DNA from: Azospirillaceae bacterium
GTDB lineage: Bacteria > Pseudomonadota > Alphaproteobacteria > Azospirillales > Azospirillaceae
NCBI GenBank assembly: GCA_028277115.1
Contig: JANQHG010000058.1
Location: 1 to 53,290 of the forward strand
Direction of reading: 5' to 3'
Length of the DNA: 53,290 nt
Under the pieces are notes generated by a model, which was given only the letters and a program-made list of their open reading frames with translations, made no database searches and was not told the DNA's origin. Below are positions 29,316-37,427 of this stretch, piece by piece (position 1 is the stretch's first letter; every line of letters begins with the position of its first letter). Made by a program: the position numbers and the translations under genes.

Positions 29316-30473
29316 TTGAGCGACCGGGTGACCACGACCCTTGGCGACGCGCCGCCCGAGACCGAGGGGATCCTGCCGTCGCAAGCGGTGCGCGCTGCGA
29401 TCGCCCGGGGCTGGATCGGAGCGGCGACCGCGGTCGGCGACGACCAGATCCAGCCGGCCAGTCTCGACCTGCGGCTCGGGGCGACCGCCTATCGGGTGCA
29501 GGCGAGCTTTCTTCCCGGGCGCAGCGCCCGGGTCGCCGACAAGATCGACGCGTTCACCCTATACGCCCTCGACCTCGGCGACGGCGCGGTGCTCGAACGG
29601 CACTGCGTCTACATCGTGCCGCTGGTCGAACGGCTGGCGTTGCCGCCGAACCTGTCGGGGCTCGGCAACCCCAAGAGCTCGGTCGGACGGCTCGACATTT
29701 TCGTGCGGCTGTTGACCGACTATGGCGGCGAGTTCGACCGGGTCGCCGCCGGCTACCACGGGCCGCTCTATGCCGAGATTTCGCCGCGCGCCTTTGCGGT
29801 CCGGGTGCGCGCCGGGTCGCGCCTGGCGCAACTGCGCCTGCGGCGCGGCCGCGCCAGCCGCCCGAGCGATACCGAGATGCGCCGCCTCAACGCCCGGGTG
29901 CCGCTGATCCAGTGCGAGGGTGCGACCGAGCCGATCGACCGCGGGGTCGTCGTCACGGTCGATGCCCGCGGCGACGGGCCGGGCGGCCTGGTTGGCTACA
30001 AAGCGCGGCGCAACGCCGGCCTGATCGATCTCGAGAAGATCGATCACTACGACCCGCTCGCCTATTGGGAGCCGGTGGTCGCCCATGGTCGGCCCGAGCT
30101 GATCCTCGACCCGTTCGACTTCTACATTCTGGCGTCGCGCGAATCGGTGACCGTGCCGTCCGACCATGCCGCCGAGATGCTGGCCTACGACACCCTGGTC
30201 GGGGAGTTTCGGGTCCACTACGCTGGCTTTTTCGACCCCGGCTTCGGCATGGCCGAGACCGGCGGTGCCGGCAGCCGGGCCGTGCTCGAGGTTCGCGCCC
30301 ACGAGGTGCCGTTCGTGATCGAGGATGGCCAGGTGGTCGGCCGCCTGATCTACGAGCCGATGTGCGCGGTCCCGGACAAGCTCTACGGCAGCGCGATCGG
30401 GTCGTCCTATCAGCGCCAGCGCCTCGCACTGGCCAAGCAGTTCCGCCGCCCTGGACCTGCACCAGAAGTCTGA
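29316..30473 (+). CDS. dcd: dCTP deaminase, long alphaproteobacterial form
   Basis: A 385-residue enzyme, about twice the E. coli Dcd length, as in the long bacterial form with two tandem dUTPase-like modules. The N-terminal half carries GILPSQAVRAAI, DDQIQPASLDLRLGATAYRV, NPKSSVGRLDIFVRLLTDYG and GYHGPLYAEISPRAFAVRVR; the C-terminal half repeats the theme with LDPFDFYILASRESVTVPSD, FDPGFG and FVIEDGQVVGRLIYEPM. It deaminates dCTP to dUTP for thymidylate synthesis. I chose TTG 29316, which has AGGGGGG six to eight bases upstream; GTG 29328 is the other candidate. Confidence 0.85.
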   Translation: MSDRVTTTLGDAPPETEGILPSQAVRAAIARGWIGAATAVGDDQIQPASLDLRLGATAYRVQASFLPGRSARVADKIDAFTLYALDLGDGAVLERHCVYIVPLVERLALPPNLSGLGNPKSSVGRLDIFVRLLTDYGGEFDRVAAGYHGPLYAEISPRAFAVRVRAGSRLAQLRLRRGRASRPSDTEMRRLNARVPLIQCEGATEPIDRGVVVTVDARGDGPGGLVGYKARRNAGLIDLEKIDHYDPLAYWEPVVAHGRPELILDPFDFYILASRESVTVPSDHAAEMLAYDTLVGEFRVHYAGFFDPGFGMAETGGAGSRAVLEVRAHEVPFVIEDGQVVGRLIYEPMCAVPDKLYGSAIGSSYQRQRLALAKQFRRPGPAPEV

Positions 30474-30567
30474 CCAACAAAATCGGATTTTTTGCAACAG
30501 CTACGGTGATCCGGCCCGAAACCGCTGGCGTAGAAGCGGTTACAACAACACAGCAGGGGACAGGGAC

Positions 30568-30804
30568 ATGGACACCAACTCGTTGATCATCGCGCTGCCG
30601 CTCGCCACCTTCGGTATTACACTTGCGTACATCTTGTTCGGTGATCGGTTCGTCCGGTCGAGCAGCGGCGTTGACAGCGCGTCGGTCGCCGGCGCCGGCG
30701 TGGTGACTTCGCAGAGCTATGCCCGTCGGGCGACCGAGAGCCGGGGCGCGACCCAGCGGTCGGTGGCAGGCACCGCCAACGCCGCGGTCGGCAAGGCGGC
30801 GTAA
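30568..30804 (+). CDS. Small single-span membrane protein (tandem paralogue 1)
   Basis: 78 residues. A hydrophobic N-terminal segment, SLIIALPLATFGITLAYILF, is a single membrane span starting at residue 5; the rest is a polar tail of Ser, Ala, Arg and Gly. The next gene (30871) is a close paralogue: the first 26 residues differ at three positions, and the tail end matches as ARRATESRG and QRSVAG. The ribosome sites are also alike (AGGGGACAGGGAC here). I know no family for it. Lpd lies downstream, so an operon is possible. The conserved N-terminus and tail with a variable middle favour a real gene over chance. Confidence 0.7.
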   Translation: MDTNSLIIALPLATFGITLAYILFGDRFVRSSSGVDSASVAGAGVVTSQSYARRATESRGATQRSVAGTANAAVGKAA

Positions 30805-30870
30805 CCTGACCGCCAACCGACGGTTTCGTGTCATCCAGAAAATCCGAACGATCTTTGAGGGGACCGGGAC

Positions 30871-31089
30871 ATGGACACCAGCTCGTTGATCATCGCGCTT
30901 CCGCTCGTCACCTTCGGCATCACGCTCGCGTACATTTTGTTGGGTGATCAGGTTGTCGGCACCGGTCGCAGCAGCTCGGCATCGTCGGCCGGTGCGCAGC
31001 CGCACGCGCGCCGGGCGTCGGAGAGCCGCACGTCCGGCCAGCGGTCGGTGGCGGGCCGGGCGTCGGGCGGGGTCGCCAAGGCGGCGTGA
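30871..31089 (+). CDS. Small single-span membrane protein (tandem paralogue 2)
   Basis: 72 residues. It begins MDTSSLIIALPLVTFGITLA and continues YILLGDQVVG, giving one membrane span, and ends ARRASESRTSGQRSVAGRAS. Relative to the copy 300 bases upstream it lacks about six residues in the middle. Its ribosome site GAGGGGACCGGGAC matches that of the first copy. The tail is strongly basic, so positive-inside topology would place it in the cytoplasm. Tandem duplication followed by divergence is the simplest history. Function unknown. Confidence 0.7.
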   Translation: MDTSSLIIALPLVTFGITLAYILLGDQVVGTGRSSSASSAGAQPHARRASESRTSGQRSVAGRASGGVAKAA

Positions 31090-31368
31090 GCCGTCCGGAG
31101 GTCCGACGGCATCATGGGTTGACCGCACACGGGGCATGGGCGGTCGGGTCGGAGGGCGCGGGGGGCATCCCCGCGCCCTTTGATGTCTGTTGCCCGCCGG
31201 CTTTCGGCCTGTCGGCCGGGCGATGGGCGCCAGACCCCAAAAAACTCTGCTGCCCGCCAACAATGCCGCCGCATGCCCTCATCCGGCCGCCGGCGCGGCG
31301 ATTGTCAGGCGTGCCGGTTCCGGTCCATAAAGACGACCCGTCTCGCGAAGACCGGAAGGCACCCTCCA

Positions 31369-32775
31369 ATGGATCAATTCGATGTCGTGGTGATCGGCGG
31401 CGGTCCGGGCGGCTATGTCGCCGCGATCCGGGCTGCCCAGCTCGGGTTGTCGGTCGCGTGCGTCGAAAAACGCGACAGCCTCGGTGGCACCTGCCTCAAC
31501 GTCGGCTGCATTCCGTCGAAGGCGCTGTTGACCAGTTCGGAGAAATGGGTCGAGGCGACCGGCCATCTCGCCAGCCACGGAGTCAAGGTCGGCGAGGTCA
31601 CGTTCGATCTTGGCGCCATGATGGCGCACAAGGACAAGGTGGTCGCCGCCAACACTGCCGGCATCGCATTCCTGTTCCGCAAGCACAAGATAACCTGGGT
31701 CAAGGGTCACGGCCGGCTGGTCGCGGCCGACCGGGTCGAGGTCACCGGCGACGCGCCGGCGCGCACGCTGATCGCGTCCAAGGCGATCGTGATCGCCACC
31801 GGCTCCGAGGTTCAACCGCTGCCCGGGGTCGAGATCGACGAACACAAGATTGTGTCCTCGACCGGGGCGCTGACGCTCACCGAGGTGCCGCGGCGGCTGG
31901 CGGTGATCGGCGGCGGCTACATCGGGCTCGAGCTGGGCTCGGTGTGGGCCCGGCTCGGCAGCCAGGTCACGGTGATCGAGTTTCTCGACCGGATCCTTCC
32001 GGGGATGGACCGCGACGTGTCGAAGACCATGCATCGGCTGCTCGGCCGACAAGGTCTCACGTTCCGTCTCGGCACCAAGGTCACCGCTGCGGGGCGCGAG
32101 GGCGATGGCGTGCGTCTCACCCTCACGCCGGCCGCCGGCGACGGCGCGGCCGAGACGCTGGACGCCGACCTCGTGCTGGTCGCGATCGGGCGGCGGCCCC
32201 ATGTCGCGGGGCTCGGGCTCGACGCGGTCGGGGTCGCGTTGACCGGGCGCGGGCGCATTCGAACCGACCAGAACTTGCGCACCAGCGTGCCCGGGATCTA
32301 CGCGATCGGCGACGTGATCGACGGCCCGATGCTCGCCCACAAGGCCGAGGAAGACGGTGTTGCGGTGGCCGAGGTGATCGCCGGCCAGTCTGCGCACCTC
32401 GACTACGGCGGCGTGCCGGGCGTGGTCTACACCGCGCCCGAGGCGGCCCAGGTCGGCCGCACCGAGGAGGGGCTGCGCGACGCCGGCGTTGCGATCAAGG
32501 TCGGCAGCTTCCCGTTCACCGCCAACGGGCGGGCCCGCGCTCTGGCGCAGACCGACGGCTTCGTCAAGCTGATCGCCGACGCCCGGACCGACCGTCTGCT
32601 CGGCGCCCACATCGTCGGTGCCGAGGCCGGCACCATGGTCGCCGAGCTCGCTCTGGCGATGGCGTTCGGCGCCTCGGCCGAGGACATCGCCCGGACCAGC
32701 CACGCCCACCCGACCCTCAACGAGGCGGTCAAGGAAGCCGCGCTCGCGGTCGCGGACCGGGCGTTGCATATGTGA
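31369..32775 (+). CDS. lpdA: Dihydrolipoamide dehydrogenase (E3)
   Basis: A 468-residue FAD-dependent disulfide oxidoreductase, the shared E3 of 2-oxo acid dehydrogenase complexes and the glycine cleavage system. Seen in order: FAD fingerprint GGGPGGYVAAIRAAQLG (from residue 10), the redox pair Cys42-Cys47 in GGTCLNVGCIPSKALL, the NAD site VIGGGYIGLELGSVWARLG, the second FAD contact GIYAIGDVIDGPMLAHKAEE, and the catalytic His-Glu pair in HAHPTLNEAVKEAAL. Its usual sucAB or pdh neighbours are absent here, so it may serve several complexes. The ribosome site GGAAGG precedes the ATG at 31369. A hairpin follows the stop. Confidence 0.95.
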   Translation: MDQFDVVVIGGGPGGYVAAIRAAQLGLSVACVEKRDSLGGTCLNVGCIPSKALLTSSEKWVEATGHLASHGVKVGEVTFDLGAMMAHKDKVVAANTAGIAFLFRKHKITWVKGHGRLVAADRVEVTGDAPARTLIASKAIVIATGSEVQPLPGVEIDEHKIVSSTGALTLTEVPRRLAVIGGGYIGLELGSVWARLGSQVTVIEFLDRILPGMDRDVSKTMHRLLGRQGLTFRLGTKVTAAGREGDGVRLTLTPAAGDGAAETLDADLVLVAIGRRPHVAGLGLDAVGVALTGRGRIRTDQNLRTSVPGIYAIGDVIDGPMLAHKAEEDGVAVAEVIAGQSAHLDYGGVPGVVYTAPEAAQVGRTEEGLRDAGVAIKVGSFPFTANGRARALAQTDGFVKLIADARTDRLLGAHIVGAEAGTMVAELALAMAFGASAEDIARTSHAHPTLNEAVKEAALAVADRALHM

Positions 32776-32838: not shown

Positions 32839-32874
32839 ATACCAAATCCGGAAGGTCACGTCCGGATTTGGTAT
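32839..32874. terminator. Palindrome downstream of lpdA, related to the hairpin repeat end
   Basis: ATACCAAATCCGGA (32839-32852) and TCCGGATTTGGTAT (32861-32874) form a perfect 14-bp inverted repeat with an 8-base loop. Its outer 12 bases equal the opening of hairpin repeat copy A at 2843. A third partial copy of the arm (CGGATTTGGTGTCA) lies near 32928. It may end lpdA transcription, or be a solo terminal fragment of the dispersed element. Confidence 0.55.
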
Positions 32875-32980
32875 CAGGCCGCGACCGCGGCCCGCGCCGT
32901 GTGGCGCGCAAGCCGAGCGGCGATTGAACGGATTTGGTGTCACCCCCACCTGGCCGCGGGTCACGCGGCCGTGAGGTCGC

Positions 32981-36288: not shown

Positions 36289-37275
36289 TCAGGGGGCTTC
36301 GAACAGTGCCTTTAGCGATGGCGTGTCGAGGAGCCGGTCAGCCCAGACATCCAGTTGGTCCGGTTCGGCGTCGTGGATTCGTTTCTCGACCTCGGGCGGT
36401 AGTACACCGAACCGGCGACGAAGCAACCGAATGATCGTCTTGGCCTGTCCTTCGATCCGCCCTTCGGTTCGCCCTTCGGTCCGCCCTTCGGTCCGCCCTT
36501 CGGCTTTCCATTCTTCTATCCAGTACTCGCCTAGGTCTGCCAGCATCGTCTTGACCTTCTGCAAATCGTGCGGCACCGCCGCCGTGGGCGCAACGGTCTC
36601 AAGCGCCACCCGCGCCATCTCGGCGAACAAGTCGCGGAGCTGGTCATGGCCCGGATGACGAAGGAACCAGGCGACGATCGCCGCGACCAACTCTTGGAAC
36701 TCCGCGAACGATGGGCGGCGTTCGAGACGGGTCAGAAGGGTCGCGAGATTGGTCTCGTCGCCGAGGTCGGCCGCCGGTGCCGCGCCCATGTCGAGCAGAT
36801 AATAGCGCGCTCGCGGCTGCCAAGGTGCCAGCGGCGATCCCGGCGTGAGCGCGATCAGCTCGGTGGTCGTGGTCGGCGCGGTCCAGCGCGGCGTGCCGTT
36901 GTACAGCACAATCACCAGCACCGGCGGCAGCCGGTCCCCGGTCTTCAGCTTGCGCGCGGCGATGATCGCCTGGAACAAGAGGCCCTGATAGACCTGGACC
37001 CGCACCGCCATCCACCAGTCGGTCTTGGACTGAAACTCGAACATGACATAGACCAATAGGTCGGTGCCGCTGTGGGTCGGCAGGCACCAGACGATGTCGC
37101 CGCGCCGTTCCCGCCCCCGGCCCGGTTTGCCGGTCGTAAAGTCGGTGGCGAACAGCTCCATTCGGGTAAAATCGATCCCGGCCGCCAGCACCTCGGGCAC
37201 GAATGCCCGGATCAAATGTTCGACCAGCACCGCATGGCTGAAAAGCCGCCGGTAGAGCGCGTCGAAATCCGGCAT
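36289..37275 (-). CDS. Rpn-family PD-(D/E)XK nuclease/transposase-like protein, full length
   Basis: A 328-residue protein of the Rpn/YhgA family (putative transposase/invertase; recombination-promoting nucleases). The N-terminus is MPDFDALYRRLFSHAVLVEH, and the nuclease core includes GDIVWCLPT (Asp) and LVYVMFEFQSKTDWWMAVRV (the E-x-Q motif of this PD-(D/E)XK group). The C-terminal part is helical and holds the peptide repeat EGRTEGRTEGRTEGRIEG, encoded by a 12-base unit in tandem. AGGAG precedes the ATG at 37275; the longer frame upstream has no family match. A C-terminal relative lies at 1-333. It is divergent from the aminotransferase. Confidence 0.85.
   Translation of the reverse strand: MPDFDALYRRLFSHAVLVEHLIRAFVPEVLAAGIDFTRMELFATDFTTGKPGRGRERRGDIVWCLPTHSGTDLLVYVMFEFQSKTDWWMAVRVQVYQGLLFQAIIAARKLKTGDRLPPVLVIVLYNGTPRWTAPTTTTELIALTPGSPLAPWQPRARYYLLDMGAAPAADLGDETNLATLLTRLERRPSFAEFQELVAAIVAWFLRHPGHDQLRDLFAEMARVALETVAPTAAVPHDLQKVKTMLADLGEYWIEEWKAEGRTEGRTEGRTEGRIEGQAKTIIRLLRRRFGVLPPEVEKRIHDAEPDQLDVWADRLLDTPSLKALFEAP
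36457..36504 (-). repeat. In-frame 12-bp tandem repeat inside the Rpn-family gene
   Basis: Four consecutive units of the 12-base sequence CGCCCTTCGGTC (plus strand) with small variations encode EGRT/EGRI on the minus strand. Because the unit is a multiple of three, gain or loss of copies would change the helix length without a frameshift. Confidence 0.75.
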
Positions 37276-37427
37276 GGTCGGTCCGCTCTCTCCTGGATGC
37301 CTCGGCTCGCCCCACGTGGCGGTGAACCGCACGCGCCCGGCGCCGCATCCAGGACCGTTGCTTGTGTGACTGCGGCCGTCAAGCTATATCTAGGCGCGCA
37401 AGGCGCCCGATACGTGGATATATGCTC

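Follow-up and report, generated by a model that had tools for sequence, protein, structure and literature searches.

A tandem pair of predicted single-span small membrane proteins between dcd and lpdA in an Azospirillaceae bacterium

The small membrane proteins AcrZ, MgtR, MgtU, and MgtS bind transporters and alter their activity, with lengths of 49 aa for AcrZ, 30 for MgtR, and 28 for MgtU (PMC10710835, in extract). DinQ is a 27-aa peptide of the inner membrane that is under antisense control (PMC3567139, in extract). The intergenic microproteins of the Enterobacteriaceae, a set that spans 15 to 70 codons, are lineage specific and mainly hydrophobic or potentially transmembrane; according to excerpts of that study, some clusters are under purifying selection, while most potentially translated intergenic small ORFs carry no sign of selection (PMC11188072). 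In the alphaproteobacterium Sinorhizobium meliloti, seven of 48 newly found small proteins are predicted membrane proteins, and the spread of the small proteins ranges from one present in four strains only to some that occur across several phyla (PMC10117765, in extract).

Here, we describe two short ORFs in a window of 53,290 nucleotides, the whole stretch of DNA that was analyzed, from an Azospirillaceae bacterium with a 4.77-Mb assembly in 285 contigs. The ORFs sit between dcd (frame end 30473) and lpdA (31369 to 32775), with all four genes on the plus strand. We identified dcd by NCBIfam NF005734 together with Pfam DCD_N and DCD_C, and lpdA by TIGR01350. The coordinates and lengths (78 and 72 aa) given by a first-pass annotation are exact from ATG to stop. 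The features of the locus are as follows.

30555 to 30567, plus strand: leader and ribosome-site region of ORF1, AGGGGACAGGGAC, the same as the ORF2 leader at 12 of 13 bases.
30568 to 30804, plus strand: ORF1, with ATG at 30568 and stop at 30804, 78 aa, GC by codon position 0.59/0.60/0.86, paralogue of ORF2; an N-terminal predicted membrane span is followed by a Ser/Ala/Val-rich middle and a cationic tail.
30858 to 30870, plus strand: leader and ribosome-site region of ORF2, AGGGGACCGGGAC, the same as the ORF1 leader at 12 of 13 bases.
30871 to 31089, plus strand: ORF2, with ATG at 30871 and stop at 31089, 72 aa, GC by codon position 0.61/0.64/0.89; layout as in ORF1, with a shorter middle.
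31148 to 31184, plus strand: GC-rich hairpin with a 16-bp stem and a 5-nt loop, between ORF2 and lpdA.

ORF1 and ORF2 are tandem paralogues that derive from a duplication, as had been proposed at first pass. In an alignment of 78 columns, their proteins are 68% identical as counted by the alignment tool, and identities are distributed unevenly, with 23 in the 26 columns of the N-terminus, 8 in the 25 of the middle (where six columns are gapped), and 18 in the 27 of the tail. The pattern of conserved ends and a variable center was therefore read correctly, down to the three differences among the N-terminal 26 residues (N4S, A13V, and F24L) and the tail motifs ARRA[TS]ESR and QRSVAG, which are present in both proteins. 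Furthermore, local alignment of the residues after position 26 scored 94, compared to a maximum of 64 in 5,000 composition-shuffled pairs. The similarity is also visible in two blocks of DNA, one of 100 nt that runs from the leader through codon 29 (87%, spacing 303, which is the start-to-start spacing of the ORFs in bases) and one of 60 nt across the 3' end (75%, spacing 285). The ribosome-site regions had been said to match; 12 of the 13 bases before the ATG are identical, whereas the upstream DNA has diverged, with only 24 matches over 60 bases in an ungapped comparison. Allowing for up to one mismatch, the leader plus ATG occurs at just two sites in the assembly, those of ORF1 and ORF2, and folding revealed no RNA structure at either leader (z of 0.36 and 1.99). 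A search of the same genome for further paralogues gave next best matches at E 0.48, within a 1,285-aa frame, and E 0.51, within a 505-aa frame.

The composition of the two ORFs resembles that of genes. Specifically, third-position GC reaches 0.86 in ORF1 and 0.89 in ORF2, like that of dcd (0.88) and lpdA (0.90), and GC is 0.54 in the gap before ORF1 and 0.58 in the gap before ORF2. On the far side this contrast between gene and gap fails, since the 279 bases before lpdA have a GC of 0.70, as high as that of the genes. At codon positions 1 and 2, both ORFs range from 0.59 to 0.64 while the neighbors have values of 0.72 to 0.74 and 0.48 to 0.49, a mismatch that perhaps reflects an odd amino acid composition. 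The copies differ at 17 first, 14 second, and 28 third codon positions, and their overall dN/dS of 0.38 breaks down into 0.13 for the N-terminus, 0.43 for the middle, and 0.47 for the tail. The N-terminus carries six synonymous and three nonsynonymous substitutions, and under neutral simulation, three or fewer residue changes in this zone arose with a probability of 0.016 to 0.045 overall (P of 0.016 at a transition bias of 1, 0.026 to 0.027 at 2, and 0.044 to 0.045 at 5). These results support purifying selection on the protein that is strongest on the span, with a modest signal from a single pair of sequences. The selection put forward at first pass is upheld in that form, at modest strength; the case is limited to two sequences because no convincing homologue was found in the other genomes searched. 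In addition, dS is lowest in the N-terminus (0.40; middle, 1.34; tail, 0.63), and gene conversion or constraint at the level of the mRNA could therefore account for some of the identity there.

Each protein is predicted to cross the membrane once, in keeping with the first-pass annotation. Hydropathy over 19 residues reaches a maximum of 2.28 in ORF1 and 2.46 in ORF2, with the peak at residues 6 to 24. A structural model of ORF2, built with ORF1 as the sole alignment partner, consists of a single helix at residues 3 to 30 and a tail without structure (mean pLDDT 61.2, pTM 0.30), with low confidence past the helix. Basic residues favor the cytoplasmic side of a membrane, the positive-inside rule. 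Before the span there are no Lys or Arg residues and one Asp, and the tails carry 7 Lys or Arg and 2 Asp or Glu in ORF1, and 7 and 1 in ORF2. Under this rule, the basic tails suggest an orientation, called from hydropathy and charge, in which the short N-terminus would lie outside and the tail in the cytoplasm. Both copies conserve G16-x-x-x-A20. Motifs of the GxxxA type often pack helices yet are common, and pairing of helices through this one is a lead only.

We then asked how far the pair extends, a search that the first-pass annotation had suggested; a wider family is not supported. A profile made from the two proteins retrieved only ORF1 and ORF2 convincingly from 82 genomes of the family, and likewise from samples of 385 genomes of the class and 398 of the phylum, the own genome included in each. 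These sets overlap, the order and family searches drew on an identical set of 82 genomes, and the class and phylum searches scored at most 14 candidates among the matches listed. Three matches in family genomes (E 0.003 to 0.009) were rejected, two for an internal stop and one for lying within a 732-aa frame; matches in 3 of 58 relatives (E 0.003 to 0.07) were partial and inside longer frames. Patterns for the span written in degenerate codons hit 2 of 384 and 4 of 81 genomes other than the own one, all unrelated on inspection: a 511-aa polytopic-looking protein (G055), a 146-aa frame that by eye has no second span (G262), two further polytopic-looking proteins (G081 and G089), and open frames of just 36 and 39 aa (G010 and G019). 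Plasmids and phages held no relative of either ORF. A scan of named genome contigs returned 60 pattern stretches and no confirmed relative, and a scan of viral contigs returned one match (L041), most likely a chance frame of 44 aa enclosed by a 245-aa ORF that is read in another frame. Both scans require exact short peptides, and distant homologues could escape them as well as the sampled class and phylum searches.

Searching both proteins by tblastn against 131 loci gave, among the best 40 rows, matches outside the own locus from E 1.2e-4 (L004) with composition correction off. Without the own loci, five matches had E of 0.01 or less when correction and filter were off, and one did under default settings (L041, E 0.007). 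Two of the three partial matches among the 58 relatives, those in L004 and L005, seem to fall in the antisense frame of a gene resembling rho, a reading that we base on L045, which has similar letters antisense to its own rho-like ORF. We found no paper on these proteins. Conservation past the own genome was thus not found in genomes, phages, plasmids, or contig scans, and the pair appears to be lineage restricted as far as is visible. The first-pass annotation had said in advance that a lack of homologues in any related genome would refute it, and for the genomes searched this is formally the outcome. Since the family listing includes no other member of the genus, and given the paralogue comparison and codon composition, ORF1 and ORF2 are in all likelihood real genes.

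It is possible that such genes are newly arisen in this lineage, recently duplicated, and expressed with a function that has yet to settle. Neither a homologue nor a syntenic trace exists in the relatives examined, and small hydrophobic ORFs are frequently orphans (PMC11188072, in extract), in agreement with a recent origin. The low dN/dS of the span and the retention of shared motifs in both copies point the other way, and we regard this explanation as unlikely.

The neighborhood of the pair offers few clues to its role. The first-pass annotation had left room for a meaningful link to the E3 dehydrogenase gene lpdA, which was present in all 81 family genomes searched (the own one included; 80 of 80 others). 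From 30 lpdA loci, one of them the own locus, we read 1.5 kb upstream in the 29 others (1.4 kb in one). An E2 gene that we take to be sucB-like was found in six and other sequence in the rest; this gene ends directly upstream of lpdA in five of the six, and a 125-aa ORF intervenes in the sixth (L025). None of the 29 upstream regions contains an ORF similar to ORF1 or ORF2. A lipoprotein-like ORF of 61 aa that lies 0.8 to 0.9 kb upstream of lpdA in one relative (L021) is unrelated to the pair. An accessory protein linked to lpdA would be expected in a conserved neighborhood, and with none in 29 relatives and a hairpin separating ORF2 from lpdA, the proximity is most likely due to chance. The dcd of this window (29394 to 30470) is of the long two-domain form, DCD_N plus DCD_C. 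Of 39 family genomes that were sampled, 4 (the own one included) carry this form, and its presence in 3 of the 38 others makes the long dcd patchy in the family. Downstream of the long dcd in these three relatives there are other genes and no similar ORF, so linkage of the pair to dcd is not supported. At least 586 relatives of dcd were found in genome contigs, 80 loci of which were kept; in 20 of these, some with short flanks, we inspected the large or hydrophobic ORFs that follow dcd and did not find the pair. One of the dcd loci from the family (L044, in genome G004) has the same downstream ORFs as one from a Rhodospirillales assembly (L062), which means that the genome collections overlap and that such rows are not independent.

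Between ORF2 and lpdA, the region 31088 to 31190 folds at -58.8 kcal/mol (z -3.24), and none of 200 shuffled sequences was equally stable. The hairpin within it (31148 to 31184) has a weak T-tail, and a terminator scan found one site where 0.7 were expected; it is a candidate for the end of a transcription unit, with hints in its favor. Strong GC-rich hairpins are not unique to this spot, since in 45-nt windows taken every 5 bases a limit of -36 kcal/mol was reached at window starts 18371, 30236, 36171, and 49761, while the hairpin after ORF2 fails that limit in the same scan. The arrangement suggests that the pair probably forms its own transcription unit and is not part of a dcd-lpdA operon. 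After lpdA, at 32839 to 32874, there is a perfect 14-nt inverted repeat, ATACCAAATCCGGA ... TCCGGATTTGGTAT, with arms 8 nt apart. One arm has a near-copy at 32929 to 32942, and the palindrome, which is single in the window, could be either a terminator for lpdA or some repeat element. Elsewhere in the window, the minus strand at 36289 to 37332 encodes a protein with Pfam Transposase_31 (PF04754), which we take to be of the Rpn type, with a C-terminal DUF4351 at residues 290 to 342. From residue 277, just before DUF4351, it carries five units of four residues each, AEGR-TEGR-TEGR-TEGR-IEGQ.

The profile databases agree with the first-pass annotation, which knew of no family for the two proteins, as none of Pfam, NCBIfam, PHROGs, PADLOC, and PDB returned an accepted match. 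It could be argued that ORF1 and ORF2 evolve fast and belong to a known family of small membrane subunits, whether respiratory, pilin, holin, or transporter associated, from which they have diverged beyond recognition. Short single-span proteins hold little signal, and DUF7533 (PF24377) does match residues 5 to 32 of ORF2 weakly (E 0.02). Yet, at 15.4 bits, that match is below the gathering cut-off of 27 bits, ORF1 has no match to the same profile, and NCBIfam, PDB, PHROGs, and PADLOC were empty even at E up to 10. Furthermore, the pair is not in an operon with a partner, having dcd and lpdA for neighbors. We therefore rate membership in DUF7533 as unsupported and descent from a known subunit family as distinctly doubtful.

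Tandem copies are common in type I toxin families, and the duplication would fit a toxin-antitoxin-like pair of hydrophobic peptides that are silenced by antisense RNA and depolarize the membrane. DinQ-like single-span small proteins also exist (PMC3567139, in extract). Against this, 72 to 78 aa with a long cationic tail is longer than DinQ, PADLOC gave no match and Pfam none that was accepted, and no Rfam family was above threshold in 30300 to 31500, where the sole match was to a microRNA model (E 0.71, 21 bits against a threshold of 78). A promoter scan found none on either strand at the locus, which says little when only 0.1 was expected by chance. A toxin of this type is, in our judgment, quite improbable. 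Least probable of all are chance ORFs on a duplicated GC-rich stretch that are not genes. Long ORFs readily arise by chance in GC-rich DNA, and many surround this spot, among them an antisense one of 436 codons. Yet changes here are concentrated at synonymous sites, the ORFs have the GC3 signature, the leader and start are conserved, and both copies retain the span despite divergence of the DNA that precedes the leader.

The most likely explanation, which we favor tentatively, is that ORF1 and ORF2 are duplicated bitopic small membrane proteins, restricted to this lineage, that modulate a larger membrane partner. A tandem duplication gave two genes, in all likelihood real and confined to this lineage as far as is visible. 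Each product would be a bitopic protein of the inner membrane, with five residues outside, a helix at about residues 6 to 24, and a disordered cationic tail of 46 to 52 residues on the cytoplasmic side. The common span may dock on one larger membrane protein, or pair the two copies with each other, while the diverged middle and tail would set the partner, the timing, or the binding of lipid, as in small proteins that modulate transporters. This function is inferred, as the most economical reading of proteins that combine a single span with a disordered cationic tail and show no domain typical of enzymes. Against it, the gene context points to no partner gene. A more specific possibility is a genus-level family of hetero-pairs, in which the GxxxA face of the span would pair the copies and the tails would bind an anionic surface or two partners. 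In such a pair, the anionic cytoplasmic surface might be lipid, RNA, or DNA, and the ratio of the copies could tune a membrane tether. We consider this version a long shot.

What is new here is the orphan pair itself, in which selection is seen through the genes' own duplication instead of through homologues; the kind to which it belongs, lineage-restricted small membrane proteins, is already known. The finding is a modest one that by itself opens no new mechanism, and a tie to central metabolism through lpdA is unsupported. For ORF2, the likeness to DUF7533 is a weak profile match over the membrane span that most likely reflects shared hydrophobicity. With DinQ, the pair shares small size and a single predicted span of the inner membrane, but ORF1 and ORF2 are longer, have a long hydrophilic tail, and match no family, and Rfam showed no antisense RNA family above threshold at the locus. 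Similarly, they are predicted to be small hydrophobic single-span proteins of the kind of TisB, DinQ, and Ldr, but with 46 to 52 residues of hydrophilic tail. Like AcrZ, MgtR, MgtS, and MgtU, the products of ORF1 and ORF2 are predicted small membrane proteins in which no catalytic domain was seen, and the single span of the AcrZ and MgtR kind is predicted for both; unlike AcrZ, MgtR, and MgtU, they are 72 to 78 aa long, carry long cationic tails, and are duplicated, and there was no accepted Pfam or NCBIfam profile match to AcrZ, MgtR, or similar families. The enterobacterial microproteins differ from the pair, which has 72 and 78 codons, comes from an alphaproteobacterium, and consists of diverged tandem copies with a shared leader. 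Like the pair, however, they are intergenic, hydrophobic, and mostly lineage specific, with little structure and with clusters under purifying selection. ORF1 and ORF2 thus agree with a picture in which much of the small membrane proteome is lineage restricted.
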